Of a stretch of 64,000 nt of DNA, positions 1,551 through 41,929 are shown piece after piece. This DNA comes from Paraglaciecola sp. MB-3u-78 (GTDB lineage: Bacteria; Pseudomonadota; Gammaproteobacteria; Enterobacterales; Alteromonadaceae). Where the stretch lies: NCBI RefSeq assembly GCF_002835935.1, contig NZ_PJCF01000004.1:682001-746000 (forward strand), given 5' to 3'. The position numbers and the translations under genes were made by a program. Every line of letters begins with the position of its first letter. Positions within the stretch are counted from its first letter, which is position 1. Below the pieces are notes generated by a model, which saw nothing but the letters and a program-made list of their open reading frames with translations, did not search any database and was not told the DNA's origin.

Positions 1551-1564
1551 TTGACTAAGATCAA
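1551..1564. promoter_or_regulatory. FNR/ANR-type box upstream of glgP
   Basis: TTGAC-TAAG-ATCAA differs from the FNR consensus TTGAT-N4-ATCAA at one base. It ends 59 bp before the glgP start codon, close to the spacing of the other boxes in this window. Confidence 0.55.
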
Positions 1565-1608
1565 AGATGGCGCATTTTAGTATTAAGAATTTTATCTGGG
1601 TTAATCAT

Positions 1609-2052
1609 TTATAGGTCCAACGGGATGCTAAGTGCCCAATTTACCATTTCATCATGGTTCATTTGTTTATCTGTTCGCGCGAGTTCTTCATTTCGATAAA
1701 ATATACCTATGGTTTGAGCCGCAGATATTCCAAGTGCGATAGCGGTATTCTTTTCGCTATCTATATTGATTCTAGCAAGCCTAATATGTGGCTCTAAGGT
1801 CCCAACACAGTCATCAAACGCCAATATCATTTTAGTGTTAGGACTGGATAAAACAGACCAGAAAAGGATCATCAGTGGAATGTCATTACGTGTCATAAAG
1901 TGACTGATATTAACACCAGATAATTCTATGGATTTCCCCATGAAAAGAATTTGGTGACATTTTCCACACATCGGTTTGCGTACTATGTGTTGATACTGAA
2001 GTCTGTTGATAGCCCAACAGATTGGACATGCGATTTGAATATGGGTTTTCAT
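1609..2052 (-). CDS. thioredoxin-2-like protein lacking the redox-active cysteines
   Basis: This 147-residue protein has the TrxC layout: an N-terminal zinc ribbon with two CxxC pairs (C9/C12 and C29/C32) and a thioredoxin-fold domain. Where TrxC has the WCGPC active site, this one reads FWSVLSSPNTK, and the cis-Pro loop reads AAQTIGIFY instead of the usual IPT. So the metal-binding module is kept but the dithiol is lost, and oxidoreductase activity is not expected. It may act as a zinc-binding or partner-binding protein (inference). It lies between glgP and the divergent glutaredoxin-like gene, in the anaerobic island. Confidence 0.65.
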   Translation of the reverse strand: MKTHIQIACPICWAINRLQYQHIVRKPMCGKCHQILFMGKSIELSGVNISHFMTRNDIPLMILFWSVLSSPNTKMILAFDDCVGTLEPHIRLARINIDSEKNTAIALGISAAQTIGIFYRNEELARTDKQMNHDEMVNWALSIPLDL

Positions 2053-2240
2053 TTAAACTTTTCCTCTAGGCCATTATTTTTTTTGACAAACGATAGTTGC
2101 GTAATTTTTCAAGTTTGTGTCCGTATAATGCTAGATGCGCTCTATTGCCTTCCATTCTGCATAAATGTGAATTTTATTAAATGATGGAAATGATCCCACA
2201 TGTTTTTACAACTAAAATTACATACTTACCAAGTTAAGTA

Positions 2241-2254
2241 TTGACGCTGATCAA
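2241..2254. promoter_or_regulatory. FNR/ANR-type box upstream of the glutaredoxin-membrane gene
   Basis: TTGAC-GCTG-ATCAA has one mismatch to FNR consensus. It lies 58 bp before the ATG at 2313. A possible TTG start at 2241 would put the operator inside the gene, which supports the downstream start. Confidence 0.6.
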
Positions 2255-2312
2255 ATTTCATTTTTGTATTTTATTTAGTTTTGAAAAAGACAAAGATACA
2301 TTGGGCTGTTTT

Positions 2313-3203
2313 ATGAAAGGGTTAATGATTTGTGGGCTTTGGCTAAACGTTTTATTTTCTTCTTTTATTTACTCACAACAAACAGATACTGACGCCCATC
2401 AAGATTTTAGTTGTACCAGTATTGAAGTGTTTTCAAGACAAGGCTGTCCCCACTGCAAAACAGCATACCAAGCACTTGATAACCTGACCTCCTTGCATCC
2501 TGAACTTAGGGTAAGCAAACGTGATATTCAGCAAACTCCAGCAAACTGGGCACGTTTTGTTAGTCTTAACGAGGCCCATAAAATAGATAAACCCGGTGTG
2601 CCTTCCTTTTATATGTGTGGTCATTTTTGGGTTGGCTTTGACCACGTATTCACACCACAGCAAATATTGATATATTCTGGATTAGAAAAAACCGATCGCC
2701 GTAATGATGTGTCCCCTTCAAACTCGGTGCGGATGCCAATTTTTGGAGACATTACTGCTCAACAGTATGGTTTACCACTTTTTACTGTTGCGACGGGTTT
2801 GTTAGATGGCTTTAATCCATGTGCTATGTGGGTTTTGATGTTTCTGTTGTCAATGCTGGTCAATGTTAAAAGTCGTAAACGTATGGTCATCATAGCTGGT
2901 ACTTTTGTGCTGGTCAGCGGTCTTGTATATTTTGCTTTTATGGCTGCATGGTTGAATCTTTTTATCATTATCGGGATTTCCCGAAATGTTCAAATTTTGA
3001 TTGCAGCCATTGCCATAGTTATAGGTAGTATTAATCTAAAGGACTACTTTGCCTTTAAGAAAGGGTTAACCTTGGGTATTTCTGAAACATCAAAATCAGG
3101 TCTATATCAGAGAGTGCGTAATATTGTGCAAGCACAGAATATGACCGTGGCTCTTTTGGGGGTAATAATGGTTGCTGTGTTGTTCACTCTACATGTTAAA
3201 TAA
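2313..3203 (+). CDS. glutaredoxin domain fused to a membrane thiol-relay domain
   Basis: From ATG 2313 the 296-residue product begins with a hydrophobic signal-like segment, followed by a glutaredoxin/thioredoxin-like domain with active site C45-P-H-C48 and a PGVPSFYMCG cis-proline stretch. A membrane domain of several helices follows, with GFNPCAMWV near residue 166, a motif found in proteins related to DsbD/CcdA. It may move reducing equivalents across the inner membrane. The reading frame stops after VAVLFTLHVK, where I would expect a further helical region with a second cysteine in this family, so the C-terminus may be truncated. That is from memory of the family and not shown here. An FNR-like box precedes it. 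Confidence 0.7.
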   Translation: MKGLMICGLWLNVLFSSFIYSQQTDTDAHQDFSCTSIEVFSRQGCPHCKTAYQALDNLTSLHPELRVSKRDIQQTPANWARFVSLNEAHKIDKPGVPSFYMCGHFWVGFDHVFTPQQILIYSGLEKTDRRNDVSPSNSVRMPIFGDITAQQYGLPLFTVATGLLDGFNPCAMWVLMFLLSMLVNVKSRKRMVIIAGTFVLVSGLVYFAFMAAWLNLFIIIGISRNVQILIAAIAIVIGSINLKDYFAFKKGLTLGISETSKSGLYQRVRNIVQAQNMTVALLGVIMVAVLFTLHVK

Positions 3204-3354
3204 AAATACCAGTGACATTTCAGCCAGACTTTCCATTTTTGAGGTTTCTCATATAAGTTAGATAAACGACCCATATCTTTAATGGAACTGATATGGCAAG
3301 TACGTCTTTCATCAAATACCCCTGTGTTAGGACAGCTGCTGATGAGTCCAGTAT

Positions 3355-3368
3355 TTGATGAATATCAA
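3355..3368. promoter_or_regulatory. perfect FNR/ANR box upstream of the formate/nitrite channel
   Basis: TTGAT-GAAT-ATCAA is a perfect match to the FNR consensus palindrome, 74 bp before the ATG at 3443. Confidence 0.75.
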
Positions 3369-3442
3369 TATTTGTCCGCTAAAAACCTCCAAAGTAGTAA
3401 TTATTATTGATAAAAAATTGTCTATTTAAAAGAGTGAAATCT

Positions 3443-4258
3443 ATGAGTATAAAACTTGGTTTTAGTGCTTATTCACCAGCACAAATTGCTGCAATGGTGG
3501 ATGAAATAGGTGTAAAAAAAGCGACCATGCCCTTATTACCTCTTGTGATGTTGGGTTTTTTAGCCGGTGCCTTTATTGGACTAGGTGCAATGTTGTATGT
3601 GTTGATTAAATCCGACATCACACTAAGTTTTGCCAGCACGCAACTTTTAGGTGGATTGGCATTTTGTCTGGGACTGATTTTAGTGGTTGTAGCGGGGGCA
3701 GAATTGTTTACCGGTAATAACTTAATTGTTATGGCATGGGCTGATAACAAAATTTCATTGTATGGGTTGCTTAGAAATTGGACGGTAGTCTGTATCGCCA
3801 ATTTGTTTGGTGCGGTGGGTATGGCAACCCTTGTTTATTTATCAGGCCACGTAATGATGAATGACGGAGCGGTAGCTGAGCAGTATTTGAATATCGCTGC
3901 GAGCAAAAGTGCCTTAACAAACACAGAGGCTTTGTTTCGCGGGATACTATGTAACGTGTTGGTATGTATAGCGGTATGGATGGCAATTGCAGGTAAAACA
4001 GTAACCGACAAAGTGGTAGCTATAATCTTTCCCATAACCGCATTTGTCGCCGCTGGGTTTGAGCATAGTGTGGCGAATATGTATTTTTATCCCATGGCTC
4101 TGTTGATCCAACATTTTTCTATCCTAGAAATACCAGGAAGTCTTATCACTTTTTTGGACTTCTTTCGAAATATTTTTTTTGTGATCATCGGTAATATAAT
4201 CGGTGGTAGTGTTTTTGTTGGATTGGTATATCACATTATCTATCAGCGAAAATTTTGA
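3443..4258 (+). CDS. formate/nitrite transporter (FNT) family channel
   Basis: This inner-membrane protein of 271 residues belongs to the FocA/NirC family, with about six hydrophobic helices and the family-typical GAELFTGNNL and GFEHSVANMYFYP motifs. FNT proteins are pentameric channels for small monovalent anions such as formate or nitrite. The start at 3443 (MSIKLGFSAYSP) is preferred over the upstream in-frame codon at 3407 because it matches the family N-terminus. The formate dehydrogenase genes begin 111 bp downstream under their own FNR-like box, so formate is the likely substrate (inference from context). Confidence 0.88.
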   Translation: MSIKLGFSAYSPAQIAAMVDEIGVKKATMPLLPLVMLGFLAGAFIGLGAMLYVLIKSDITLSFASTQLLGGLAFCLGLILVVVAGAELFTGNNLIVMAWADNKISLYGLLRNWTVVCIANLFGAVGMATLVYLSGHVMMNDGAVAEQYLNIAASKSALTNTEALFRGILCNVLVCIAVWMAIAGKTVTDKVVAIIFPITAFVAAGFEHSVANMYFYPMALLIQHFSILEIPGSLITFLDFFRNIFFVIIGNIIGGSVFVGLVYHIIYQRKF

Positions 4259-4293: not shown

Positions 4294-4307
4294 TTGATAC
4301 CCGTCAA
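4294..4307. promoter_or_regulatory. FNR/ANR-type box upstream of fdhF
   Basis: TTGAT-ACCC-GTCAA has one mismatch to FNR consensus and lies 62 bp before the formate dehydrogenase ATG at 4370. Confidence 0.65.
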
Positions 4308-4369: not shown

Positions 4370-6472
4370 ATGAGTCAAACTCAGGTTAACAGTATCTGTC
4401 CTTTTTGTGGGGTAGGTTGTGGTATTGCACTTGTGGCGAGTGACAATAATATCACTGCAGTTCAGCCTCTTAGTAAGCATCCTATTAGTCAAGGAAAGTT
4501 GTGCGCAAAGGGTTGGAATACCCCCTTTGGTATCAACCATCATGATCGGTTAACGCAACCTTTAATGAAAGTAGATGGCGAGTTTAGGGTAGTGAGTTGG
4601 AAACATGCTCTAAGTCATATTGCCGAAAATCTTAAACAGTTCATCTGCGAAAGTGGCCCACAAAGTGTCGGTCTTATTAGTAGTGCCAGAGCAACCAACG
4701 AAGATAACTACGCGGCGCAAAAATTTGCCAGAGCCGTGTTAAAAACCAATAACATAGATCACTGTGCACGTATTTGCCACAGCCCCACAGTCGCAGGTCT
4801 CAAAAAGACCTTAGGCTCGGGTGCGATGACAAACAGCATTGATGATGTGGGCAAAGCAGATGTGATATTGGTGATTGGTGCCGACCCCACTGAAAACCAC
4901 GCAATAATTGGTGGGAAAATCATGAAAGCCAAGCTTCGAGGGGCAAAGCTTATTGTGGTTGATCCCCGTCAAACACGCCTTGCCAAAGTGGCTGACTTGC
5001 ACCTGCAACTTAATATTGGAACGAACATCGCACTCCTAAATGGCTTGTTGAATATTATCTTTGCACACGGTTGGCAAAATGATGAGTTTATCGCACGCCG
5101 TTGTGAGGGGGCTGACGCTCTCAAGGCCCATGTTGCAGATTATACTGTTGAAAAAGTATCTGTCATTACCGGAGTCGATGGCGCTGATTTAGTCAAAGCG
5201 GCAAAATTGTATAGTCAAGCAAATGCCGCATTTCTTGCTTATGGAATGGGCATAACCCAATTTGTTAGCGGTACAAATAATGTGATAGCTGTATCAAACC
5301 TTGCGCTTATTTGCGGGCAAATTGGCCGCGAAGGAACAGGCATTAACCCGTTACGTGGACAAAATAACGTGCAAGGTGCCTGTGATATGGGGTGTTTACC
5401 TAATGTTTATCCTGATTATCAAAGCGCCAATGACGAACAGGTTAGATCAAAATTTAGTCGAGCATGGCAAACAGAAGTAGCTCGATTGCCGGGCTTAACA
5501 TCATTAGGAATGAGTCATCAGGCACGGCATGGCAACTTTAGGGGATTACTTATTTTTGGTGAAGATCCAGTCGTGACTGATCCTGACCGCAATAAAGTGG
5601 CTCAGGGGCTGCGGGCAATGGATTTATTGGTAGTGATTGAATTATCGATGACAGAAACTGCAAAAATGGCGGATATCGTATTGCCTGCTGCTAGTTTTGC
5701 TGAAAAACGAGGCACCTTTACTAACTGCGAACGCCGTGTGCAATTGATCCACAAGGCCGTTTCACCTCCTGGTGAGGCGAAGATCGATTGGCAGATACTG
5801 AGCGAACTAGCAAAGGAAATGGGGTTTCCTGAATTAATGAATTGGCAAACAAGTGAACAAGTTTTTGATGAAATGTGCAAATTAACCGACTCCTTTAGTG
5901 GTATGTCATATCCTCGTTTAAAACAAAATAATGGCCTGCAATGGCCCTGTAACAATGAATATCCAGATGGTAGTCGTTGTTTACATTCAACAACTTTCCC
6001 CATAGGTAAAGGTAAACTTATACCTGTCTACCATGTGCTGACAGACGAAGTACCTGATGCCGAATATCCGTATTGGTTTACCACCATGCGCTTGCACTTC
6101 CATTATGGATGCGGCTCTATGACCCGCCAATCACCGTTGTTAGAGCGTGAGACACCTATTGGACTGCTGTTTATTCATCCACAGGATGCATTGGATTTAG
6201 GATTGAAAAATCATCAAGGGGTGACGGTTTCATCAAGGCGTGGGTGTGTCGAAACAAGGATTGAATTCAGTAACCAAGTGAGTCCAGGTTTGTTGAGTAT
6301 GCCTTATCATTTTAAAGAAGCACCTTCCAACTTTTTGACTAACGATGCAATGGATCCGATCACAGAAATGCCGGAACTTAAGGTCTGTGCTGTCAACATT
6401 ATTCCATTACCTGAAAACCAACCGCCACGTTCATCTGTATTAAGTGATGCAGGGAGTAGAGTGTCCCAATGA
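4370..6472 (+). CDS. fdhF: formate dehydrogenase, molybdopterin catalytic subunit, cysteine type
   Basis: The 700-residue product is a molybdopterin oxidoreductase of the FdhF class. An N-terminal [4Fe-4S] motif (CPFCGVGCG, then LCAKGW) is followed by molybdopterin-binding domains (VIGADPTENHAIIGG, RGQNNVQGACDMG) and a C-terminal MGD-binding domain. The metal ligand site reads HCARICHSPTVAGL, with Cys136 and His137 where E. coli FdhF has selenocysteine and His, so no selenocysteine insertion is needed. There is no twin-arginine signal, so the enzyme should be cytoplasmic. It overlaps the next gene by ATGA, which makes it the first gene of a three-gene unit with electron-transfer subunits and no hydrogenase. 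Confidence 0.9.
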   Translation: MSQTQVNSICPFCGVGCGIALVASDNNITAVQPLSKHPISQGKLCAKGWNTPFGINHHDRLTQPLMKVDGEFRVVSWKHALSHIAENLKQFICESGPQSVGLISSARATNEDNYAAQKFARAVLKTNNIDHCARICHSPTVAGLKKTLGSGAMTNSIDDVGKADVILVIGADPTENHAIIGGKIMKAKLRGAKLIVVDPRQTRLAKVADLHLQLNIGTNIALLNGLLNIIFAHGWQNDEFIARRCEGADALKAHVADYTVEKVSVITGVDGADLVKAAKLYSQANAAFLAYGMGITQFVSGTNNVIAVSNLALICGQIGREGTGINPLRGQNNVQGACDMGCLPNVYPDYQSANDEQVRSKFSRAWQTEVARLPGLTSLGMSHQARHGNFRGLLIFGEDPVVTDPDRNKVAQGLRAMDLLVVIELSMTETAKMADIVLPAASFAEKRGTFTNCERRVQLIHKAVSPPGEAKIDWQILSELAKEMGFPELMNWQTSEQVFDEMCKLTDSFSGMSYPRLKQNNGLQWPCNNEYPDGSRCLHSTTFPIGKGKLIPVYHVLTDEVPDAEYPYWFTTMRLHFHYGCGSMTRQSPLLERETPIGLLFIHPQDALDLGLKNHQGVTVSSRRGCVETRIEFSNQVSPGLLSMPYHFKEAPSNFLTNDAMDPITEMPELKVCAVNIIPLPENQPPRSSVLSDAGSRVSQ

Positions 6473-7578
6473 TTGAAAGATACAATATTGTCAATAATCG
6501 TTATTTACTCAAAGACTTAGGTGTTTTAAAACATCATCTTGCTAAGTATTATTCGGTAGTGCAGATCCAAAAAGATGCCGATGGTGAGAAACTGTGGACA
6601 GAACAGTTCGGTGATAAAATTGAGCCATTATTTGGTCATAATCACTTACCTTTGACGTCTCCCAAAGGTTTTTTGTTTGCCGAAAAAGAAGTGCTCTATA
6701 AATTTGATGGCGAAACCTTCAAAACCATTCTGCCGCAAGTTCAGCCAAAAGTAATGTTTGGTGTTCAGGCCTGTGATTTAAGCGCTATCGCCTATCAGGA
6801 TAAATTTTTTGAACACGACCCCTATTATCAGAAAAGGCGTGAAAATATTCTTCTTGTTGGGATCGATTGTGAGTCACCTTGCGTTACTGGATTTTGTGTT
6901 CAAGTTGATGCGGGACCACATGTTAAAGATAATACAGCCGACTTGGTGTTAAGCCGTTTAAATGTGGATGACGCTAATGGATCCTCTGAATGGCTAGTGA
7001 TCGCGGCGACTGAAAAAGGTATTAACAGCATTAAAGGTATGACGTTAGATAAGGCCGATAACAAACATCTTAAATTACGAACAAAATTGTTAGAAAAGGT
7101 ACGTTCTGAGTTTGTTGATTATAGTTATATTAGTAACGCTATTGAGTACCTAAACAACAATTCAGTTCCCGCGCAACTCTGGGAAGAATTAAGTGTACGA
7201 TGTTTGGGGTGTTCTGGTTGTACCAATCTTTGTCCTACCTGTTCTTGTTACACTACTTATGACGTTGTTGAACAACAACCAGAGAAGCCCGTATCAATAT
7301 CCAGAGAAGTGAAGCTAGAGGTTACCAAGTCCGAGACAATAAGATGTTGGGATTCCTGTCTGTTTGAAGGTTTTCAAAAGGAAGCCAGTGGTCATAATCC
7401 TAGTCAAAAGGCCGCCCAAAGAGTTGAAAGGTTTTGGTTTCATAAGTTTTCGGATGAATACCTACCAGAATTCCAACGATACGGCTGCGTGGGTTGTGGG
7501 CGATGTGAACAGACCTGTCCTGGCACCATTGGAGTGCATTCAGTCATGAAAAGGATAGATCAACAATGTTGCAGCTAA
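6469..7578 (+). CDS. 4Fe-4S electron-transfer subunit, hydrogenase/sulfite-reductase beta (HydB/AsrA) type
   Basis: This 369-residue iron-sulfur protein resembles the beta subunit of soluble sulfhydrogenases and AsrA of anaerobic sulfite reductase. Two C-terminal ferredoxin-like clusters are visible: CLGCSGCTNLCPTCSC and CVGCGRCEQTCPG. The N-terminal half carries the family segment FGVQACDLSAIAYQDKFF. It would pass electrons from the formate dehydrogenase to the flavoprotein encoded next. It overlaps fdhF by four bases and the next gene by 13 bases, so the three are almost certainly co-translated subunits. Confidence 0.82.
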   Translation: MIERYNIVNNRYLLKDLGVLKHHLAKYYSVVQIQKDADGEKLWTEQFGDKIEPLFGHNHLPLTSPKGFLFAEKEVLYKFDGETFKTILPQVQPKVMFGVQACDLSAIAYQDKFFEHDPYYQKRRENILLVGIDCESPCVTGFCVQVDAGPHVKDNTADLVLSRLNVDDANGSSEWLVIAATEKGINSIKGMTLDKADNKHLKLRTKLLEKVRSEFVDYSYISNAIEYLNNNSVPAQLWEELSVRCLGCSGCTNLCPTCSCYTTYDVVEQQPEKPVSISREVKLEVTKSETIRCWDSCLFEGFQKEASGHNPSQKAAQRVERFWFHKFSDEYLPEFQRYGCVGCGRCEQTCPGTIGVHSVMKRIDQQCCS

Positions 7579-8414
7579 CACCACAAACGATACGCATAGT
7601 TGATGTGTACGATGATGGCAGTCATGCAAGGCACTTTACCTTTGAACCCAAAGGGTTTGTGCATGACAACCCCATAAGCATTGGTCAATTCTTTATGTTG
7701 ACATTACCTGGCGTTGGACTTGCCCCTTTTACCTATACATCTATTCCTGACAAAACAGGTCGTTTTAATGCTCTGATTAGAAATGTCGGACATTTAACCG
7801 AAAAGTTATTTTCCTTAGGCAAAGGGGATGTGTTGGGATATAACGGTCCATTTGGTAGAGGGTGGCCAGTCGGCCTGATTAAGCATAAAGAAGTATTAAT
7901 TGTTGCAGGTGGTTGCGGGTTAGCGCCCGTAGCAGCCACCATTGACTACTTAATCAATAATGGCTATTCGAAGTCAGTCACATTGTTATATGCTACTCGC
8001 GACTCAGCCTCACAAGTACTCAAAAAAGAAAGAACTCGCTGGTCCTCTAGTATCAAACTGATTGAAACGCTGGAGGTAGGAGGGGATAGCGACCACTCTG
8101 GTTTGCCGACACAATACTTATCCCATCTTCTAAACAAAGATGATCAATATCCAGACATTGTGCTTACCTGCGGACCGGAAGCGATGATGATGGCGGTTGC
8201 CAATTCCTGTGTAGACTTAGGCTTAAAAACGTCAGACATTTGGATGTCAATTGAACGACGAATGCGCTGCGGTGTAGGGCTATGTGGTCATTGTTATGTG
8301 GCCAATAGTTACGCGTGTCAACAGGGGCCTACTTATCGCTATGATGAGTATCTGGCACTTGAAAGTAAAACAGTGGCCTTTGAAAAGGATAAAGTTCTAT
8401 TTCAGTACTGCTAA
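7566..8414 (+). CDS. FAD/NAD(P)-binding reductase subunit, hydrogenase gamma (HydG/AsrB) type
   Basis: The 282-residue product has a ferredoxin-reductase fold: an FAD-binding half with the flavin loop APFTYTSIPD, an NAD(P)-binding half (LIVAGGCGLAPVAA and LTCGPEAMMMA) and a C-terminal [2Fe-2S] site (CGVGLCGHC plus a later cysteine in YACQQGP), as in dihydroorotate dehydrogenase electron-transfer subunits and HydG/AsrB. With fdhF and the beta-type subunit it should make a soluble formate:NAD(P)+ oxidoreductase. Choice of NAD or NADP cannot be decided from the sequence. It is last in the unit. Confidence 0.82.
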   Translation: MLQLTPQTIRIVDVYDDGSHARHFTFEPKGFVHDNPISIGQFFMLTLPGVGLAPFTYTSIPDKTGRFNALIRNVGHLTEKLFSLGKGDVLGYNGPFGRGWPVGLIKHKEVLIVAGGCGLAPVAATIDYLINNGYSKSVTLLYATRDSASQVLKKERTRWSSSIKLIETLEVGGDSDHSGLPTQYLSHLLNKDDQYPDIVLTCGPEAMMMAVANSCVDLGLKTSDIWMSIERRMRCGVGLCGHCYVANSYACQQGPTYRYDEYLALESKTVAFEKDKVLFQYC

Positions 8415-8788
8415 GTGCAATACTTTTTTGACACAGTTCATGTTTTCAAAATATGCAAAATTACACTAGTAATGCTGAGTTTAATCAATGATATAGAGTG
8501 AATTATGATAAGTCGGTCTAGTTATTTAAATCCATTTAACTCATTTAAGTACAAGTATCATTGTTCACGGCCGGTGCCAATCCACATCGCCAAAATGAAA
8601 CCATTTATATTTTGATATGAATCAATGTCTCAATAAAAACCGACCACAGTCTTTAAAGGTAGCGGAACCAAAATTTAGCGCTCTGAAGTTTTATAGTCTA
8701 GTGTTTGTGAAAGACCGACTAGCGAAGCACTGAAAGACGGTAACCAAGGCTGATAAATCTAAGAATAGTATTCAGAAGGAATAAAACC
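8415..8788 (+). other. intergenic region with long leader to the 75-residue gene
   Basis: No gene is evident in this stretch. It holds a perfect FNR box at 8612-8625, followed by about 160 bp before the next start codon. That is unusually long next to the other FNR-type promoters here, so a transcribed leader or small RNA is possible. I could not identify a known riboswitch. Confidence 0.4.
8612..8625. promoter_or_regulatory. perfect FNR/ANR box
   Basis: TTGAT-ATGA-ATCAA matches the FNR consensus exactly. The next gene on the plus strand starts 163 bp downstream at 8789. Confidence 0.72.
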
Positions 8789-9016: not shown

Positions 9017-9512
9017 ATGTCCCAATATATTATCGCCTGTTTCACTGCACTTATGTCGACTCATATTATTAGAGTAAAGGTAACTGAATAGCGGCTTTAT
9101 GCTTAACCACCAGTCACTATGCGATTTAATTATTTGAAAATTTGAATGCAGTTATTTATGTTCCCAATCAACTTGCTACACAAAAGATTAATCAGTTAGC
9201 AATTCTCTTAGGTATTAACACCGATGATATCGAGACTTTCGCAGCCCCATGACTTTTGGCTCTAATTTGATCCTGTTTGGCCTACATTTTGACACGGATC
9301 AATGTTTCTGTTTTGAACTGTCGTTTAATGAAGTTGTATTGGTGCATTGATTAAGTGATTGTTTGTTTAAAACAACCACCACCTTCTATTTCAAAGAGTA
9401 CTGATGTGCAGGAAGAAAAAAGCTTTGTATCCAAGGAAAAAGACCAACATGTTCTTCAATAAAACACCCACTTTAAGTTATAAATCGATTATATAAACGC
9501 TTTGGATTGATT
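9017..9512 (+). other. intergenic region with FNR box and possible gene remnant
   Basis: No complete gene is seen. From about 9137 to 9252 the plus strand carries an open stretch of some 40 codons (including AVIYVPNQLATQKINQLAIL) with no convincing start codon, ending at TGA 9250-9252. It may be the tail of a lost gene. An FNR-like box lies at 9289-9302. Confidence 0.3.
9289..9302. promoter_or_regulatory. FNR/ANR-type box upstream of rhodanese gene
   Basis: TTGAC-ACGG-ATCAA has one mismatch to FNR consensus. The rhodanese ATG is 210 bp downstream, so any transcript from here would have a long leader. Confidence 0.5.
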
Positions 9513-9878
9513 ATGTTAAAAACTCTTTCACTGTTATTACAGCAAGCGACACAAAATGTGCAACTTATCACCGCCAGAAAAGCAGCTCACGACCGCAGTC
9601 AAAATAAAGGATTATTGATCGATGTGAGGGAGTCCGCAGAACATTTCGCCTCACCTGCTATCGGCGCGATCAATATACCTCGAGGTGTACTAGAAATAAA
9701 AATGCTGGAAATCGAAAAGGACCCTAATCGACCCATTTACCTGCATTGTGCATCTTCACTGCGCGCAGCATTAGCAGCCGAACAATTAGCCAGAGTGGGC
9801 TATACAAATGTCAGTGTCATCAGTTGTAAAATGGATGAAGTACATAAAATGCACCAATACTCACAAGAACCGATTTAG
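9513..9878 (+). CDS. single-domain rhodanese-like sulfurtransferase
   Basis: This 121-residue protein is a single rhodanese domain with LLIDVRESAEHFASPAIGAI, IPRGVLE and the active-site loop HC79ASSLR84. The cysteine would carry a persulfide. The first 20 residues form a hydrophobic amphipathic helix (MLKTLSLLLQQATQNV) but not a clear cleaved signal. ATG 9513 is preferred over the TTG at 9507. It stands alone between the formate dehydrogenase genes and the acs-pdh operon with its own FNR-like box. A role in sulfur transfer for iron-sulfur or molybdenum enzymes is possible but is inference only. Confidence 0.82.
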   Translation: MLKTLSLLLQQATQNVQLITARKAAHDRSQNKGLLIDVRESAEHFASPAIGAINIPRGVLEIKMLEIEKDPNRPIYLHCASSLRAALAAEQLARVGYTNVSVISCKMDEVHKMHQYSQEPI

Positions 9879-10037: not shown

Positions 10038-10051
10038 TTGATACAGATCAA
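10038..10051. promoter_or_regulatory. perfect FNR/ANR box upstream of the acs-pdh operon
   Basis: TTGAT-ACAG-ATCAA is a perfect consensus palindrome 58 bp before the ATG at 10110. A longer reading frame starting with TTG at 10038 would overlap the operator and is rejected. Confidence 0.75.
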
Positions 10052-10109: not shown

Positions 10110-11918
10110 ATGGATTATGTCACTATAGAGAAAAAAATAAATAGACAAGATAAGCCACCAAATATGCAAGGTTATCTACAAAGTTATGATGATTTTTCTT
10201 GGCAGCAGGCTAATGCGTTAATTAAGGGCTACAAAAACGGGATTAACATTGGTTACGAAGCGGTTGATCGTCATGTTGAGGAAGGACATGGTGAGCAAAC
10301 TGCGATAATTTTTTTAGGGAAAAAAGGCCAAAGACAAATTTTATCCTATCGACAGCTGCAACAAAGTAGCAATCGGTTTGCTAACCTACTGAATCACTTA
10401 CAGGTTGAAAAAGGACACTTACTTTGTAGTTTGACAGACCGAAGCTCAACTATGTATACCGCTATTATTGGTTGTTTAAAATCCGGCGTAGTGTTTTGTC
10501 CATTGTTTGCTGCATTTGGGCCTGAACCAATAAAATCTAGAATGAAAATAGGGGGTGCCAGATTACTCCTTACAAGCGCTCGACTTTATTGTAAAAAAAT
10601 TGCCTCTTGGCGCGATGAATTGCAGTCTTTACAACAGGTGTTACTTTATGACTGCCAAGGTCAATGCCCTGAAGGGTGTGTTGATTTAGACCTAGTACTA
10701 AGCCAATACAGTGATGACTACCCAATATGTGAAACAGCCGCACAAGATACCGCTCTTTTGCACTTTACAAGTGGCACAACTGGCAAACCCAAAGGCGTGG
10801 TTCATGTTCATGAAGCCGTTATTTATCATAAATATTCAGGCTACTGTGCTCTAGATATTCATCCTCAAGATATTTACTGGTGTACCGCTGATCCAGGATG
10901 GGTGACAGGAATATCATATGGGGTCATTTCGCCATTATGTAACCGGGCCACACTTATCGTTGACAATGCTGAATTTGACCCAATTCGCTGGTATAGCATT
11001 TTGCAAATAGAAAAAGTCAATATTTGGTATACCGCACCCACCGCCATTCGGATGTTAATGAAGTCAGGAAGCGAATTATGCCAACAGTATGATTTATCCG
11101 CATTGCGGTTTTTAGCGAGTGTAGGCGAACCTCTTAACCCAGAAGCAGTCGTTTGGAGTCAAGAGTTCCTAGGAAAACCTTTTCATGATAATTGGTGGCA
11201 GACTGAAACGGGTGGGATCATGTTGGCTAACTTCATTGGTGAAAATGTTAAACCTGGTTCAATGGGCAGACCATTACCAGGTATTCAAGCATCGATTGTT
11301 AAGACAGATAAACAAGGGCATATCATCAAAGTTATCACTCCTGGTGAATCGGGAGAGTTAGCATTTAAGCCAGGTTGGCCGTCAATGTTCCGTAATTATC
11401 TCAACGAAACCGAACGTTATCAGAGTTGCTTTAAAGATGATTGGTACCTAAGTGGTGATTTAGCCTATCAGGATGAAGACGGGTATTTTTGGTTTGTGGG
11501 TCGCAGTTCAGACTTAATTAAGTCTGCCGGTCATTTAATTGGACCCTTTGAAGTCGAGAGTGCATTAGTAGAGCATCCTGCTGTGGTTGAAGCTGGAGTC
11601 ATAGGCATACCAGACCCAGTATCAGGTGAAATAGTCAAAGCCTTTGTGTCACTCAAATTCGGTTACGAACCTAACGAAGCTTTACTTAAAAGCATCATGG
11701 CCCATGCACGGAAAAAGTTGGGATCGGCTTTAGCGCCAAGAACCATTGTTATTAAACAAAATCTACCCAAAACCCGTAGTGGAAAAATCATGCGCAGATT
11801 GTTAAAAGCCCGCGAACTTGGATTGTCTGAAGGTGACCTTTCTACTTTAGAAAGTGACGAAAACGACAGCATCAAACCAAACAATGAAGACTATCTATAT
11901 GAAGAAAAAAAGCCATGA
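10110..11918 (+). CDS. acsA: acetyl-CoA synthetase-like AMP-forming acyl-CoA ligase
   Basis: The 602-residue protein belongs to the ANL adenylate-forming superfamily, closest by eye to AcsA-type acetate:CoA ligases. Visible motifs are the phosphate loop [13 protein letters not shown] (about residue 220), [28 protein letters not shown] and the C-terminal catalytic lysine motif [11 protein letters not shown]. It activates acetate or a short acid to the acyl-CoA using ATP, and the reaction is reversible. It is first in a five-gene operon with pyruvate dehydrogenase genes, each overlapping the next, and is preceded by GGAG and an FNR box. In that setting it may run towards acetate and ATP (hypothesis). 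Confidence 0.87.
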
Positions 11919-12907
11919 ATATTGATAACAGTAAAGTCCATATGGGCATAGCACACATGCAATTTCTGTTCAAACAAATGTTGCGCATAAGGCGTTTCGA
12001 AGAGAAGTGTGCCGAACTCTATACTCAAGAAAAAATTCGAGGATTTTTACACCTCTACATAGGTGAAGAGGCAGTTGCAGTCGGTGTGATGCAAGCATTA
12101 AAAGCCGAGGATGCAGTATTTGCCACTTACCGAGAGCATGGACATGCCTTAGCCCGTGGTTTAAGTATGGATAAAGTTATGGCTGAAATGTTTGGCAAAG
12201 TCACAGGCAGCAGTAGAGGCCGTGGTGGCTCGATGCATATTTTTGATGTGGAAAAACGCTTTTATGGAGGCAATGCTATTGTTGCCGGAGCCTTACCTTT
12301 AGCGGTTGGTTTAGCCTTAGCCAACAAGATGCAGAAAAAAAATGATGTTGTGGTGTGTTTTTTTGGTGAGGGTGCAGTTGCAGAAGGGGAGTTTCATGAA
12401 AGTCTTAATTTGGCTCAGCTATGGCAGCTACCCATCTTATTTGTGTGTGAAAACAACGGCTATGCGATGGGCACTGCTCTGGCTATTTCAGAGTCAGAAC
12501 GACACATATTCCGTAAAGCACAAAGTTACGGTTTAAAGTCACATGCGGTTGATGGAATGAATGTGGTTGAGGTTGAATCAGCTGCAACCCAATATTGTCA
12601 AAGAATTCGAAAAGGTGACGGACCCTGTTTATTGGAGTGTAATACCTATCGTTTTCGTGGTCATTCGATGTTTGATACTCAGCTTTATCGAGAGTCTGAT
12701 GAAGTAGAAGCATGGAAAAGAAAAGGCCCTATTATGAAGTTACAGCGCTGGCTTGAAGCTAATGGAAAACTAAGTAGCGCTGAATTAAAACAGATCGAAG
12801 ATCAGGTTGCTGATGAAATTAACCAATCCATAGCTTTTGCTGAGCGTAGTGAGATTGAAGATATATCTGACTTGTATCTTGGCGTTTATGGAGAGTCAGA
12901 ATCTTGA
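11915..12907 (+). CDS. pdhA: pyruvate dehydrogenase E1 component, alpha subunit
   Basis: The 330-residue product is a thiamine-diphosphate-dependent E1 alpha subunit of the alpha2beta2 type. It has RGRGGSMH, the TPP motif beginning [12 protein letters not shown] (about residue 150) and ending ENNGY (about 179), and the phosphorylation-loop-like [11 protein letters not shown]. It decarboxylates a 2-oxo acid and reductively acetylates the E2 lipoyl group. Pyruvate is most likely, but acetoin dehydrogenase E1 looks similar. It overlaps acs by ATGA and E1 beta by four bases. Confidence 0.88.
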
Positions 12908-13896
12908 AAAATCAAAGTTTAACGTATCGAGAGGCCCTCAAAATCGCTATTTCTGAGGCAATGCGTAACGATGAACGTGTCTTTCTGATGGGCGAAGATG
13001 TGGGTAACTACGGTGGTTGTTATGCGGTATCCAAGGGGTTATTAGAGGAATTTGGAGCTGATAGAATCATTGATACCCCCTTGTCTGAATCAGGCTTTGT
13101 TGGCGCGGGCATAGGTGCAGCTATAGGTGGAATGCGTCCAATAATCGAAGTAATGACAGTTAATTTTAGCTTGTTGGCACTCGACCAAATTGTTAACAAT
13201 GCGGCCACATTGCGGCATATGTCTGGGAATCAAATTGGTGTGCCTTTGGTTATACGTATGGCCACTGGAGCGGGCAAACAATTAGCTGCACAGCATTCCC
13301 ATAGCTTGGAAAATTGGTACGCACATGTGCCAGGCATCAAAGTACTCGCGCCTGCTACAGTGGCAGATGCTCGCTATATGCTTTCAATGGCTCTGAAAGA
13401 CCCAGATCCCGTCATACTCTTTGAACATGTCATGTTGTATAACGATTCAGCTGCTACTCCAAAACCAGAAGATTGCCCCGACATGCATCAAGCCTGTGTC
13501 AGAAAAGCCGGCAATGATATTAGCTTAATTACTTACGGTGGCTCCCTTTCAAAAACATTGCATGCTGCCAGTGAATTAGAGAAACAGGGGATAAGTGCAG
13601 AGGTAGTTGATTTAAGGTGTCTGCGCCCACTTGATACTCAAACCTTGTTTAAATCGGTGGATAAAACCCATCGAATGATAGTGGTTGATGAAGGATGGCG
13701 TACCGGAAGTTTAGCAAGTGAAATATGTGCATTAGTCGCAGAACATTGTTTTTGGTCTCTGGATGCGCCACCAAGCCGTGTTTGCAGTAAAGAAGTTCCC
13801 ATTCCTTATCCGCAACACTTAGAGCGCGCCGCAACTCCGCAAGTTGCGCAAGTGGTCGAGGCTGCTTTGACATTGTTAAACCGAGATGTCACTTAA
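12904..13896 (+). CDS. pdhB: pyruvate dehydrogenase E1 component, beta subunit
   Basis: The 330-residue product matches E1 beta subunits: [32 protein letters not shown], then the C-terminal transketolase-type domain ([25 protein letters not shown]). It pairs with E1 alpha to complete the active site. The start codon is TTG at 12904, overlapping the E1 alpha stop (TTGA) with GGAGAG upstream, so translation is probably coupled to the preceding gene. Homologous enzymes acting on acetoin or branched-chain oxo acids cannot be excluded by eye. Confidence 0.87.
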
Positions 13897-18704: not shown

Positions 18705-18734
18705 AGTTTTTTACCTGCGGTTAAATTTGGGGGG

Positions 18735-25989: not shown

Positions 25990-26003
25990 TTGATCTCAGT
26001 CAA
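25990..26003. promoter_or_regulatory. FNR/ANR-type box upstream of alcohol dehydrogenase
   Basis: TTGAT-CTCA-GTCAA has one mismatch to consensus and ends 57 bp before the adh start codon (minus strand). Confidence 0.62.
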
Positions 26004-26720: not shown

Positions 26721-26734
26721 TTGACCCCCATCAA
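26721..26734. promoter_or_regulatory. FNR/ANR-type box upstream of cytochrome c/ABC cluster
   Basis: TTGAC-CCCC-ATCAA has one mismatch to consensus and is 81 bp before the cytochrome ATG at 26816. Confidence 0.5.
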
Positions 26735-27295: not shown

Positions 27296-27327
27296 TATCG
27301 CATTTTATATTCTCGTTGAGCCATTAT

Positions 27328-28068: not shown

Positions 28069-30434
28069 TGAAAGTCTTAAACAAAAAGTTAATACGAGAC
28101 TTATGGAAATTGCGCGGACAAGTCCTAGCAGTTGCCCTCGTTATTGGTTCAGGTGTGGCAACCTTAGTGATGTCGTTATCAACTATCGAAGCCCTTGAAG
28201 ACACCACTGAAGCCTATTATCAACGTTATCGCTTTGGTGAAATATTTGCTTTTGCCACTCGCGCCCCATTGCGGTTAACCAACCAAATTGCACAAATAAA
28301 TGGCGTACAAACAGTTCAGACGCGGATAAGTAGCTATGCAAATATAGACATTCAAGGATTTGACCAACCTGCTATAGCGCAACTTATGTCAATCCCAGAA
28401 AAAGGCCAGCCTTTACTGAATCAGTTGGTATTGCGAAAAGGCGGCTGGGTAAGCCCTGGGCGTGATGATCAGGTTATCCTCAATGAGCCTTTTGCAGAAG
28501 CACACCAACTCGATATTGGCGATACGGTCAGTGTCATTATGAACGGTCACAAAAAACATTTTTATGTGGTGGGGATCGCTCTAAGTCCAGAATTTATTTA
28601 CGCCATTGGCCCAGGTGCGCTGATGCCTGACGATAGTTTGTTTGGCGTGATGTGGATGTCATATGAGGTGCTTGCAGCGGCTTATGATCTGCAAGAGTCC
28701 TTCAACTATCTAAGTTTAACCTTAACGCGCAATACCCTGCCAGCAGATGTGCTTAATCAAGTTGATGTTTTACTTGAACCTTATGGTGGAGTCAGCGCCA
28801 TTAAACGCGAAGATCAAATATCAAATTGGTTTGTGAAGAACGAAATAGAACAGCAAAAAAGTATGGCCACCATATTGCCCGCTATTTTTATCACTGTGGC
28901 GGTATTTTTAACCAACATGGTGTTGTCACGTTTAATTGCAACAGAAAGAACCGAAATTGGCTTACTCAAAGCTTTTGGTTATGGCAATTTTCAAATCGCC
29001 TGGCATTACATTAAAATGATGTTGGTGATTGGGATCATAGGCGTGACAATTGGCTCAGTTATTGGCGCTTATTTTGGCCGTCTTAATACTGAAATGTATG
29101 CAGAACTGTTTCGTTTCCCTTTACTGATTTATCGTCCCAGCCCTTATGCTTTTATTATTGGTGGGTTAGTCAGTATAATCGCTGCTATTTTGGGGGCGTT
29201 AACTGCCGTTAGATCTGCTGTCAAATTACCCCCTGCTGAAGCGATGATACCGCCCTCCCCTGGCATTTATAAACGAACCTTTTTATCGTCGCTGGGCCTA
29301 GCTAGATTATTGGATCAGCCTACTCGTATTGCATTACGTCAAATATCTCGTCGGCCACTACGTTCATTTTTAACCAGTGCTGGGATCGCCATGGCAACCG
29401 GCTTAATTATTATGACCTTGCAGTGGGACGATTCGTTGTCGCATCTTAAACGCGTATATTTTTTTGATAGCCAGCGGCAACATATTACTGTGGGTGTGGT
29501 TGATCCTTTGCCGCTGCGTGCCATTTATGACTTCGAAAAATTACCTGGTGTCCTGACTGCAGAACCCATATATGCAGTTAATGCAGATTTTAGTTTTGGC
29601 TCAAAGACCCACAGAGGGGGCATTACAGGTATGCAGCCTGACAGCACCCTGCAAGTAATTTACGACGACGGGCGTAAACAAAGTATAGAGGTGCCCGACT
29701 CAGGGATAGTGATCGCCAGTCGTCTAGCTCGCAAACTCAATATTAAGATTGGGGACGTTATGGGGGTTGATGTTTTAGAAGGACGCAGGCCGGAATTATT
29801 GATACCTGTAGTGGGCATTTTTGATTCATATATCGGTCTGCCAACCTATATGAACTTAGACACCCTAAATCGCGCACTCAATGAAAGCCCCAGCTTTAAA
29901 TATGCCAACCTGTTAATCGACCCGTTATATCAAGATGAACTGTACGCAGCATTCAAGAATATGCCCAAGGTTAGCACTGTGATGTTGAAACAGTCTGCAT
30001 TGGATTCATTTGATGAACATCTGGTGGAACATTTGATGGTGTTTATCTCAATGTTTACTGGTTTAGCCGTGGTATTGGTATTTGGCGTGACTTACAACAG
30101 CACTCGGGTTGCGCTATCAGAGCGCGGGCGAGAACTAGCCACCTTACGTGTGCTGGGATTTACCAAGGGAGAGATTTCTTATGTATTACTGGGTGAAGTC
30201 ATGTTTTTGATTTTACTAGGATTGCCTCTTGGCTGTTTATTTGGAGGCATTTTAGTGTGGTCGATGGCACAGTCGTTTGACACCGAAATGTATCGAATTC
30301 CTTTGGTGATCGAGGCTTCAACCTACGGATATGCCATTGTGTGGGTTGTCATCGCCGCTATCTTATCCGCGGCTCTGGTCAGGCGAAGAGTGAACAAACT
30401 TGATTTGATCAGAGTATTAAAAACGAGGGAATAA
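28062..30434 (+). CDS. ABC transporter permease with two FtsX domains
   Basis: The 790-residue membrane protein has an N-terminal helix ([19 protein letters not shown]), a large periplasmic domain, an FtsX-like three-helix block around residues 270-380, a second periplasmic domain and a second FtsX block near the C-terminus ([20 protein letters not shown]). This doubled layout is typical of exporters that use an HlyD-type adaptor. It abuts the adaptor gene with no gap. The substrate is unknown. Confidence 0.85.
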
Positions 30435-31658
30435 ATGATGCAAAGCAAACATGTGCGGTTTTTACTTTGGGCTGTGATTGCTATGGTCTTGTTATCAGTG
30501 TTGACTTATCTTTTTAGACCTAGAGCGATAATTGTGGATATAGCTCAAGTGGTTAAGGGAGAGCTACAAGAAATTATCACTGACGAAGCGAAGACAAGGG
30601 TTCACGATGTTTATATCTTATCAGCCCCTGTTACTGGGCATCTGCGGAGGATAGAGGCTGAAGTGGGCGACCAAGTCGAACGGTTGACAACTATAGTGGC
30701 CGAAATAGAACCTATCGACCCTGATTTTCTTGACCCACGAAGTGAAGCCCAAGCAAAAGCTGATATCAAAACTGCAGAGTCGGCGGTGTTGCTGGCACAA
30801 GCTCGAGTTAATCAGGCTCAGGCTGAGTTGGATTTTGCGAATGCAGAATTCGACAGAATGCGTGAACTACGAGTCAGCAATAGTGTGTCTGCGCGCGAAC
30901 TAGATAATTCTGAACGAATATACAAAACCGCATTAGCTGCCTTGGCTACCACTCAAGCTGGGCTGCAAATGCGAGTCTATGAATTGGAACGATCCAAGGC
31001 ATTAATGTTGTCCCCTTCTACAACTCAAACTCAACACGGTAACTGCCAATGTGTCAACATAACCGCTCCAGTTAGCGGACGCATATTAAAAGTATTGAAT
31101 AAAAGTGAGGGAGTGGTCATAGCGGGGACTGCTTTGCTTGAAATTGGCAATCCAAAAGACCTTGAAATAGTCGTGGAATTACTGTCTTTCGATGCAGTAA
31201 AAGTAGAACCTGGCCAAGTAGTCAATATTAAAAACTGGGGCGGCCCCCAGCCACTCACAGGTAGAGTCAATCGTATTGAACCTATAGGTTTTATGAAAGT
31301 ATCAGCCCTAGGTATAGAAGAACAAAGAGTGAATGTTATTGTTGATATTACCAGTGAATATAACAACTGGGCACGTCTGGGACATGGGTATCAGGTGGAT
31401 GTGGAAATAGTCTTATGGAATGGCTCAGATTTATTAAGTGTGCCCGTCACTGCTTTATTTAGGGAACAAGATAAGTGGGCGATATTTGTGGTCAGAGAAA
31501 AAACTGCCTATAAGCAAATAATCAGTATTGGCCACAAAAATGCCTTTAATGTTGAGGTGATTTCAGGGCTTAACGAGGGCGATTGGTATGTGTCCCATCC
31601 AAATAATCAAATTACTGACAATGTGAAAGTATCTTCACGTACAGATTATATTGAATAA
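30435..31658 (+). CDS. HlyD-family periplasmic adaptor (membrane fusion protein)
   Basis: The 407-residue protein has one N-terminal transmembrane helix (FLLWAVIAMVLLSVLTYLF), a lipoyl-like half (VTGHLRRIEAEVGDQVERL), an Ala/Glu-rich coiled-coil hairpin at about residues 105-195, the second lipoyl half (ITAPVSGRILKVLNKSEGVV) and a beta-barrel region. It completes an ABC-type three-gene exporter with the two genes before it. No outer-membrane factor is encoded here. Confidence 0.84.
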   Translation: MMQSKHVRFLLWAVIAMVLLSVLTYLFRPRAIIVDIAQVVKGELQEIITDEAKTRVHDVYILSAPVTGHLRRIEAEVGDQVERLTTIVAEIEPIDPDFLDPRSEAQAKADIKTAESAVLLAQARVNQAQAELDFANAEFDRMRELRVSNSVSARELDNSERIYKTALAALATTQAGLQMRVYELERSKALMLSPSTTQTQHGNCQCVNITAPVSGRILKVLNKSEGVVIAGTALLEIGNPKDLEIVVELLSFDAVKVEPGQVVNIKNWGGPQPLTGRVNRIEPIGFMKVSALGIEEQRVNVIVDITSEYNNWARLGHGYQVDVEIVLWNGSDLLSVPVTALFREQDKWAIFVVREKTAYKQIISIGHKNAFNVEVISGLNEGDWYVSHPNNQITDNVKVSSRTDYIE

Positions 31659-37909: not shown

Positions 37910-37921
37910 AATTTCAAACTC

Positions 37922-40718: not shown

Positions 40719-40792
40719 TAACTGGTCCTCCTCACTTACCGCTAATCATATAACCGTAACAATCCTATGACTAAATCCTAGGTATTTAGGCA

Positions 40793-40823: not shown

Positions 40824-40860
40824 TCACTTTTTAAAACTCGTATTCATACACAATTAATTT

Positions 40861-40894
40861 GAACCCATAGGCTGTTAACTAGCCCAATGGGTTC
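40861..40894. terminator. hairpin downstream of Met-rich protein gene
   Basis: The inverted repeat GAACCCAT...ATGGGTTC with an inner GGCT/AGCC pairing forms a strong stem just after the stop of the gene at 40917-41369. No T-run follows on the minus strand. Confidence 0.5.
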
Positions 40895-40916
40895 TTTCCC
40901 TGACTGAGTTATACGG

Positions 40917-41369
40917 CTACTTGTGTTTGTGAAGCACTTTGCTTTTTTCAGCAGTGTGTCCAATCATTTGCCCCATCATTTTTTCCATCATTTCCAAACG
41001 TTTCTCCATCATTTCCATCTTTTGTTCAGTGGGCATGGCGGCATCGCCTTTTTTCATTTTATCCATATTATGCTTGCCCATAGATTGACCTTTCCCCATC
41101 TCATTACCATTCATCATTGCCATCATGCTCACCATGCTATTGGCATGATCCTGCAACATCATCTGACGCTTTTCTTGATCAGTTTCTTTCTTTACTTTCT
41201 CAAGCACTGTGCTCATTTCAGACATATGTGTCTGCATTTTTTCCATTTTTGCTTCGTCCATCATGCCCATTGACATCTGTGCTTTATCACCATGTTGATG
41301 GGCATTCACAAAAGCAAGTGGAGAGAGTGCTAACAAAGTGATTAACGTAAGTGATGTAAATTTTTTCAT
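40917..41369 (-). CDS. secreted methionine/histidine-rich metal-binding protein
   Basis: The 150-residue protein has a signal peptide (LTLITLLALSPLAFVNA) and a mature region very rich in Met, Lys and Glu (MSMGMMDEAKMEKMQ, MMEKRLEMMEKMMGQM), ending in HKHK. Such periplasmic Met-rich helical proteins bind Cu+ or Ag+. It has its own MerR-type promoter with the same operator as the merR-copA operon, so both are probably switched on by the same metal. Confidence 0.8.
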   Translation of the reverse strand: MKKFTSLTLITLLALSPLAFVNAHQHGDKAQMSMGMMDEAKMEKMQTHMSEMSTVLEKVKKETDQEKRQMMLQDHANSMVSMMAMMNGNEMGKGQSMGKHNMDKMKKGDAAMPTEQKMEMMEKRLEMMEKMMGQMIGHTAEKSKVLHKHK

Positions 41370-41440
41370 GTTTATTTCCTTTTTTTTGCGCTAGTAAGCG
41401 CAGTTATTAATTGAATACTTTATAAAGTTTGCTATGAAAC

Positions 41441-41471
41441 ATCCTAAACCTATGAGTTACTCACAGGTCAA
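41441..41471 (-). promoter_or_regulatory. MerR-type promoter/operator P2 (Met-rich protein gene)
   Basis: Minus-strand -35 TTGACC and -10 TAGGAT are separated by 19 bp around the inverted repeat ACCTATG-N7-CACAGGT (41448-41468). It is nearly the same operator as P1 and lies 71 bp before the ATG at 41369. Confidence 0.8.
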
Positions 41472-41498
41472 GCGTCTATTATTGACTTAAATATGCCG

Positions 41499-41855
41499 CT
41501 AAGGAGGGTGAAATAATGATGAGGAAATATGGTTTTGAACGCTAAAGGCTAGATAGGAGTTTTTAACTTCTTTGTCTTGTTCAATTGGAACTAAAATTAA
41601 GTTCGATAACTCAATGAACAAATGACTTGGGACTAGATCAACGTAATAACACTCACCACAACTACATTCAAAATTTTGGTCATGTTCCGAATGAGTGATC
41701 ACCGGCTCTTCATAATCATCAAAGAAGGAAGTGATAACAGAGAACGATGTCGCATAGTCTTTTTGCAAACTATATTTTATTGCATGTTCATCTGCCTTCA
41801 CTGAATTGATCAGCAAAACCATCATGCAAAATAGAGCGACAAAAGACTTTCTCAC
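41499..41855 (-). CDS. secreted hypothetical protein with CxCxxC motif
   Basis: The 118-residue protein has a signal peptide (ALFCMMVLLINSVKA) and a central FECSCGECYYVD motif with three closely spaced cysteines, which could bind metal. The C-terminus ends SSSLFHPP. I do not recognise the family. Upstream are a perfect FNR box and a TGATTACA-type palindrome like the one before cusR, suggesting joint control by oxygen and metal. Confidence 0.65.
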   Translation of the reverse strand: MRKSFVALFCMMVLLINSVKADEHAIKYSLQKDYATSFSVITSFFDDYEEPVITHSEHDQNFECSCGECYYVDLVPSHLFIELSNLILVPIEQDKEVKNSYLAFSVQNHISSSLFHPP

Positions 41856-41915
41856 CTGAAACTAATCCTCTTCGTTTTGTGAAATGACATACTACTTTTC
41901 ACACAAAAAAGGGAG

Positions 41916-41929
41916 TTGATCTGGATCAA
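41916..41929. promoter_or_regulatory. perfect FNR/ANR box upstream of the CxCxxC protein gene
   Basis: TTGAT-CTGG-ATCAA matches the FNR consensus exactly and lies 60 bp before the minus-strand start codon at 41855. Confidence 0.7.

Follow-up and report, generated by a model that had tools for sequence, protein, structure and literature searches.

A cluster of FNR/FixK-type boxes in Paraglaciecola sp. MB-3u-78 and a predicted low-oxygen regulon

Why does a single stretch of the Paraglaciecola sp. MB-3u-78 genome contain so many copies of the palindrome TTGAYN4RTCAA, and do the genes that follow them form one regulon? The stretch, here called the window, is C1:682001-746000 (64 kb) of a 6.48-Mb genome (G000) in 87 contigs; contigs of this genome carry C-numbers, genomes of relatives G-numbers, and fetched loci L-numbers. 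The original prediction for this DNA had read ten such palindromes as FNR/ANR-type boxes of one oxygen-responsive regulon that would permit anaerobic survival by fermentation of stored glycogen. The type of switch is well known and the set of genes behind the switches is unusual; from the sites and their neighbours we consider it very probable that they constitute a low-oxygen regulon of the FNR/FixK type.

Frequency and spacing of the boxes

Exact matches to TTGAYN4RTCAA were counted, with the reversed pattern as control. The window has 12 matches, compared with a mean of 0.46 in dinucleotide shuffles, none of 100 of which reaches 12, and the spacer is specific in that N0 to N3 give no match in the window and N5 to N12 give one to three each. 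There are 125 sites in the whole genome, their positions obtained by splitting the pattern, and 34 sites of the reversed pattern. At the genome rate 1.23 sites would be expected per 64 kb (Poisson P 8e-9), and when the 125 sites are placed uniformly 5000 times, no 64-kb interval ever acquires as many as 12. The original prediction had proposed a comparison with the genome background, which we made by exact pattern rather than by weight matrix, and the window is indeed about ten times as dense as the genome average. C1 (975 kb) holds 44 of the 125 sites, or 45 per Mb, and the 16 other site-bearing contigs range from 2.5 to 56 per Mb, the top value coming from a contig of 36 kb that has two sites; the densest 64-kb stretches start in C1:657-684 kb (13 sites), and another starts at C1:253 kb (10 sites). 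The pattern also outnumbers its reversed control in all 20 of the relatives compared (30-91 sites versus 0-48), so that the excess across the genome is not peculiar to Paraglaciecola sp. MB-3u-78 and only the local cluster is.

Distance to the following start is better evidence than intergenic position. Using genes called with a home-made codon model, 34 of the 43 sites in C1:130-800 kb lie no more than 300 bp before a start and 14 lie at 45-70 bp; for the 82 sites elsewhere the corresponding figures are 18 and four. We also scored TATAAT by offset past the box in the 31 site-gene pairs whose box lies 45-90 bp ahead of the called start. Offset 21 has a mean score of 7.31, as against 4.83 at the next best offset, 3.98 on the mirror side at 21, and 5.43 for the best of 1000 shuffles at any offset; the peak at 21 is present independently in the nine window pairs (7.51) and in the 22 other pairs (7.23), and is matched by none of 500 shuffles in either. 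A box centred at about -41.5 sets the -10 element at this offset, which is the class II arrangement, and the fixed offset observed here is that of FNR promoters of class II. We expect most boxes that face a gene to act from the class II position, with the -10 element starting 21 bases past the box.

Two classes of site stand apart. The reversed control pattern occurs in pairs 3414 bases apart (C2:92055/95469, C2:226192/229606, C16:16/3430 and C78:124621/128035), a spacing that suggests the two ends of a repeated element. Sites of the form TTGACN4GTCAA, such as TTGACCGTCGTCAA, recur at L114:10674, C2:142257, C8:10961 and C8:83453, some of them adjoining what by eye are transposase-like genes, and these are probably not FNR sites.

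Genes behind the boxes and their relatives

The boxes of the window and the genes associated with them are as follows.

1..1491, minus strand: glycogen phosphorylase-like gene glgP, with DUF3417 and phosphorylase domains (PF11897, PF00343)
1551..1564, minus strand: box TTGACTAAGATCAA, 59 bp before the glgP ATG (1491); GATAAT at offset 21
2241..2254, plus strand: box TTGACGCTGATCAA, 58 bp before ATG 2313 and 70 bp before ATG 2325
2313..3203, plus strand: membrane protein with a glutaredoxin/DsbA-like N-terminal part; Pfam matches slightly under cut-off
3355..3368, plus strand: box TTGATGAATATCAA, 74 bp before the formate/nitrite channel gene
3443..4258, plus strand: FocA/NirC-family channel (TIGR00790, 228.5 bits, slightly under the cut-off of 232.3)
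4294..4307, plus strand: box TTGATACCCGTCAA, 62 bp before the formate dehydrogenase (FDH) gene; TTTAAT at offset 21
4370..6472, plus strand: FDH alpha subunit (TIGR01591, above cut-off)
4959..4972, unstranded: box-like exact match inside the FDH gene, probably not functional
6469..7578, plus strand: iron-sulfur partner subunit, sulfhydrogenase beta/AsrA-like; models below cut-offs
7566..8414, plus strand: FAD/NAD(P)-binding partner subunit, AsrB/sulfhydrogenase gamma-like; models below cut-offs
8612..8625, unstranded: box TTGATATGAATCAA, 163 bp before a doubtful 75-aa open reading frame; no recognisable -10
9289..9302, plus strand: box TTGACACGGATCAA, 210 bp before the rhodanese ATG 9513; TTTAAT at offset 21
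9513..9878, plus strand: rhodanese-domain protein (PF00581)
10038..10051, plus strand: box TTGATACAGATCAA, 58 bp before acs
10110..11918, plus strand: acs, AMP-forming acetate-CoA ligase (NF003313, above cut-off)
11915..15397, plus strand: pyruvate dehydrogenase (PDH) E1alpha, E1beta and E2 and an acyl-carrier-like protein, one operon with acs; conserved block
24856..25932, minus strand: zinc-type alcohol dehydrogenase family protein, adh (PF00107, PF08240)
25990..26003, minus strand: box TTGATCTCAGTCAA (plus-strand letters), 57 bp before adh
26721..26734, plus strand: box TTGACCCCCATCAA, 81 bp before the c-type cytochrome gene
26816..31658, plus strand: c-type cytochrome lipoprotein (CxxCH), then ABC ATPase, permease-like and HlyD-like genes
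41499..41855, minus strand: small secreted-looking protein without a Pfam match
41916..41929, minus strand: box TTGATCTGGATCAA, 60 bp before GTG 41855 and 90 bp before ATG 41825; TAGTAT at offset 21
48158..48171, unstranded: box-like perfect palindrome within a called gene in the metal-efflux region; probably without function

All ten of the boxes originally predicted are thus present, the two that had gone unlisted (4959 and 48158) being those inside called genes; four of the ten are perfect palindromes, as had been said, and 48158 is a fifth. The further claim that six lie 57-62 bp before a start is correct for the starts then chosen (1551, 59; 2241, 58; 4294, 62; 10038, 58; 25990, 57; 41916, 60), and is reduced to four with the starts of our own caller, which place 2241 at 70 bp and 41916 at 90 bp. 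At offset 21 the letters match a -10 element at five of six positions for boxes 1551, 4294 and 9289, at four for 41916, at three for 2241, 3355, 10038, 25990 and 26721, and at two for 8612. Some of the proposed members are weak, namely 8612, with its doubtful reading frame and poor -10, 41916, whose protein lacks a Pfam match, 26721, and the exporter genes. Box 26721 is linked, weakly, to the cytochrome gene mainly by the similar box distances (82 and 88 bp) at two paralogues elsewhere in the genome, and the exporter genes behind it are weak members by gene order and operon logic alone. A small RNA behind box 8612 was considered and rejected, there being no terminator in 8400-9560 and no Rfam match in the window. 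The glgP gene runs past the left edge of the window, and its remainder is, by eye, in L116.

The acs box is also found in other genomes. Acs of at least 62% identity is present in four of 59 other relatives and in one of 21 of the same genus, and the module is therefore accessory; the block of FocA, FDH, acs, pdh and acp genes is patchily distributed. In G025, of the same genus, the acs box has the same letters and the same 58-bp distance as box 10038, seven boxes lie in one 37.5-kb stretch that gathers orthologues of genes scattered over C1 here, and one of the two RNase-pfk boxes is kept. In G031, of the same family, the genes for FocA, FDH and its partners form one uninterrupted block with acp-pdh-acs, and boxes precede acs by 66 bp and fdh by 254 bp. 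A Photobacterium replicon has the same block and, by eye, a phosphoenolpyruvate-synthase-like gene, and we note that its E1alpha and E1beta are in a single 658-aa open frame (L256:19853-21829). In G059 the acs-pdh operon stands beside genes that by eye resemble a hydrogenase cluster, whose partners are 27-33% identical to the FDH partners. Of 80 acs loci fetched from named genomes 79 were usable (one was too short), and 19 of these have a box in the 350 bp ahead of acs, as against a background of 0.013 per 350 bp in those loci (binomial P 4e-19, related loci being counted as independent); 300 shuffles give at most two, other spacers occur at no locus or one, and when similar upstream regions are grouped the box is present in 13 of 60 groups.

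Further boxed genes are found elsewhere in the genome. A universal stress gene (usp) followed by glgC lies behind a box directly before fnr (L108:2606-4344), a placement that ties glycogen synthesis to the oxygen regulator. A D-lactate-dehydrogenase-like 2-hydroxyacid dehydrogenase gene (models below cut-off) adjoins a box, as do genes for more universal stress proteins, hemN, CBS proteins, pyruvate phosphate dikinase (PPDK) and NfeD; a phosphofructokinase gene opposite a beta-CASP RNase gene is boxed, an alternate F-type N-ATPase (TIGR03305) has two boxes, ClpB has one at 258 bp, and one site is 317 and 244 bp from the genes for phosphoketolase and an NADH-dehydrogenase-like protein. An HMG-CoA reductase gene (L120:2573-4129; PF00368), just behind the N-ATPase genes, has a box 58 bp upstream. 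We rejected a pyrophosphate-dependent phosphofructokinase, as the sequence has GGDGT with PKTIDND, residues that we take to argue against such dependence, and the models above or near cut-off are of ATP or mixed types. No pyruvate formate-lyase (PF02901) was found in the genome by a search that was positive in three of 14 control genomes, including E. coli.

Several features of the window lie outside the boxed set. Positions 26130-26675, beside box 26721, encode no more of a cation-transporting P-type ATPase than its C-terminal part (PF00689) and seem to be what is left of a gene; an ATPase with the same C-terminal family is at L118:2569-5004. By eye, 31651-32240 contains pieces of what resembles a broken multicopper oxidase gene in two frames, 34000-61000 is a long metal-resistance region with a copper P-type ATPase and two RND efflux systems, and 15899-19865, between acs-pdh and adh, has an oxidase-like trio and an ornithine-cyclodeaminase-like gene without boxes. 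With its best plasmid match, from Alteromonas stellipolaris, the ATPase part of the metal region shares 74% identity, the match covering 10% of a query of 24.7 kb.

Candidate regulators

The original prediction gave no loci for the regulators, which are newly located here. A profile search yields nine HTH_Crp_2 matches in the genome, the best of which is FNR, at C1:255284-256051 (L096:1036-1806). Its recognition helix, ETVSR (E-x2-S-R), and the central Cys in TSSVC align with those of solved FNRs, and a box lies 38 bp before its first ATG. Orthologues of 61-87% identity are present in six of 21 genus mates; a box precedes fnr in G012, G023, G027 and G029, and no box of the exact form does so in G025 or G010.

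The second candidate, at C1:773 kb (an open reading frame of L097), has the CRP/FNR fold and an FNR-like helix and is without the cysteine trio; its best NCBIfam model is Fnr, below cut-off. It adjoins FixL-like kinase and FixJ-like regulator genes and is probably FixK-like, and there is a box between it and a universal stress gene. The kinase has PAS, HisKA and HATPase domains and scores 368 bits with the FixL model, below its cut-off of 850; the PAS domain aligns with solved haem FixL structures (1dp6, 1d06 and others) and keeps both the proximal His and the distal Arg, residues with which FixL binds haem and senses at it. The FixL-like protein thus has the features of a haem-PAS domain and of a kinase, and haem binding is predicted.

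Weighing the explanations

We propose that the boxes would be binding sites for CRP/FNR-family activators, namely the FNR at C1:255 kb and probably also the FixK-like protein at C1:773 kb, and that falling oxygen would turn on an accessory regulon for survival whose genes are concentrated on a single contig. Because glgP, usp-glgC and glycolytic and fermentative enzymes are in the boxed set, stored glycogen (glgC, glgP) is the predicted fuel, which glycolysis and phosphoketolase would convert to pyruvate and acetyl units; acetyl-CoA would be handled by PDH and Acs, the lactate- and alcohol-dehydrogenase-like enzymes and FDH-FocA would dispose of reducing power, and the N-ATPase, universal stress proteins and chaperones would maintain the cell. 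The single FNR-type regulon originally predicted finds good support in local density, spacer specificity, the -10 offset, conservation, and the FNR- and FixL/FixJ/FixK-like genes. The predicted glycogen-fermenting anaerobic survival agrees with a boxed glgP and with glgC behind a boxed usp next to fnr; the oxygen response and the fermentation themselves are predicted from this gene content, and for glycogen fermentation in anoxia we put the chances as evenly balanced. Taken whole, an FNR/FixK class II regulon for anoxic survival on glycogen seems to us reasonably likely.

Several observations weigh against this explanation. Although 61 of the 125 sites are intergenic by our own gene caller, where 18% of the fetched DNA is non-coding, so are nine of the 15 fetched sites of the reversed pattern (15 of 34), at least four of these nine being copies of one repeated sequence; with controls equally often intergenic, such a position is weak evidence and we reject it as proof of function. 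The 11 box-gene pairs of G025 and G031 score 4.71 at offset 21, a value reached by 48 of 500 shuffles, and score best at offset 15. The Photobacterium block is without an exact box in 26 kb, there is no box before acs in G054 or G059, and 60 of the 79 acs loci lack an exact box, including that of Zooshikella, the closest by Acs identity. An acetate kinase gene is present and has no site beside it. In FNR the cysteines are C-x2-C-x7-C, with an Arg at the third cluster position and a Cys two residues on, whereas the orthologues of G010, G023, G025, G027 and G029 have C-x2-C-x5-C and the solved FNR also has Cys there; this displacement makes oxygen sensing by the protein uncertain, and it perhaps works like FNR, though it is not canonical.

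A chance origin of the palindromes in AT-rich intergenic DNA would accommodate the intergenic control sites, and also the facts that about two thirds of the 125 sites are outside C1 and that only 25 of 82 are intergenic outside C1:130-800 kb. It is contradicted by the shuffles, the specificity for a spacer of four, the fixed -10 offset and the conservation of boxes in relatives; we therefore reject it for the set as a whole and regard it as scarcely credible. The sites could instead serve a related CRP/FNR regulator that responds to another signal, either nitric oxide, as in the DNR type, or redox, with oxygen not the direct cue, since FNR, DNR and FixK share the same box, the second regulator has no cysteine trio, and the third cysteine of the first is displaced; the FixL haem-site residues kept by the adjoining kinase speak for oxygen, the boxed genes that were named include no recognised nitrogen-oxide gene, and we think this alternative improbable.

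The same regulon might also serve micro-oxic scavenging, with FocA importing formate, FDH oxidising it for respiration, Acs and PDH supplying acetyl-CoA, and the cytochromes and hemN serving high-affinity respiration. Acetyl-CoA formation is the usual direction of both Acs and PDH, acetate kinase is available for excretion, and some respiration may persist, to judge from hemN and the three boxed cytochrome paralogues; however, boxes are also present at the lactate- and alcohol-dehydrogenase-like genes, phosphoketolase, PPDK, phosphofructokinase, glgP and usp-glgC, and the hydrogenase-like neighbours of the acs-pdh operon in G059 likewise argue against it. We hold this alternative to be unlikely, though it deserves to be taken seriously; FDH may either make or burn formate. 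A more speculative proposal, less likely than not, is that FocA, FDH with its sulfhydrogenase-like subunits and acs-pdhABC-acp form a transferable module under FNR/FixK control, by which formate and acetate are produced with no need of pyruvate formate-lyase. PDH would yield acetyl-CoA, CO2 and NADH, FDH would reduce CO2 to formate as an electron sink, FocA would export the formate, and the AMP-forming Acs, run in reverse, would recover ATP, with the boxed PPDK drawing on the same AMP/pyrophosphate pool; a lineage mostly without the module could thereby live off glycogen in anoxia. Reverse Acs is rejected as a necessity, given the acetate kinase gene.

If these proposals are correct, a minority of a genus carries, as an accessory package, an anoxia-survival programme complete with switches and oxygen sensors of two kinds; the formate/acetate module would represent fermentation without pyruvate formate-lyase in Gamma- and Alphaproteobacteria, and a box before acs would predict which genomes have the module under oxygen control. 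In the titles and abstract openings of the open-licence literature we found no description of a FocA-FDH-acs-pdh-acp module. Models for sulfhydrogenase and anaerobic sulfite reductase subunits (HydB/HydG, AsrA/AsrB) match the two genes after FDH; unlike in those systems, the catalytic partner here is a formate dehydrogenase, and all scores are below curated cut-offs. A formate channel, lactate- and alcohol-dehydrogenase-like enzymes and FNR-type boxes are shared with E. coli mixed-acid fermentation, from which the present genome differs in that no pyruvate formate-lyase was found and acetyl-CoA would come from PDH.

The lxa (low-oxygen-activated) locus of Burkholderia cenocepacia, described as about 50 genes for anoxic persistence (PMC6127331), resembles the present set, in a comparison by description, in its universal stress proteins, cytochrome c and phosphofructokinase, and differs in that the parts of the description consulted mention no acs-pdh or FocA-FDH block; in the same species two Anr regulators are reported in the corresponding account to be jointly needed for anoxic survival (PMC9104464). 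The FNR/ANR/FixK regulons of Proteobacteria, including those of Bradyrhizobium FixK2, Sphingopyxis Fnr and alphaproteobacterial FnrN/FixK, use the same box as here. Sphingopyxis Fnr sites lie at -41.5/-42.5 before uspA, ccoN and hemN2 (PMC7713065), hemN is an FnrN/FixK target (PMC4999443, in which the terms acetyl-CoA and PDH are absent), and micro-oxic Bradyrhizobium induces USP, CBS, phosphoketolase, DnaJ, phosphofructokinase-family and HemN proteins (PMC6515984, where the terms acs, PDH and formate dehydrogenase are likewise absent). To regulons of this kind the present set adds glgP, usp-glgC, FocA-FDH and acs-pdh-acp.

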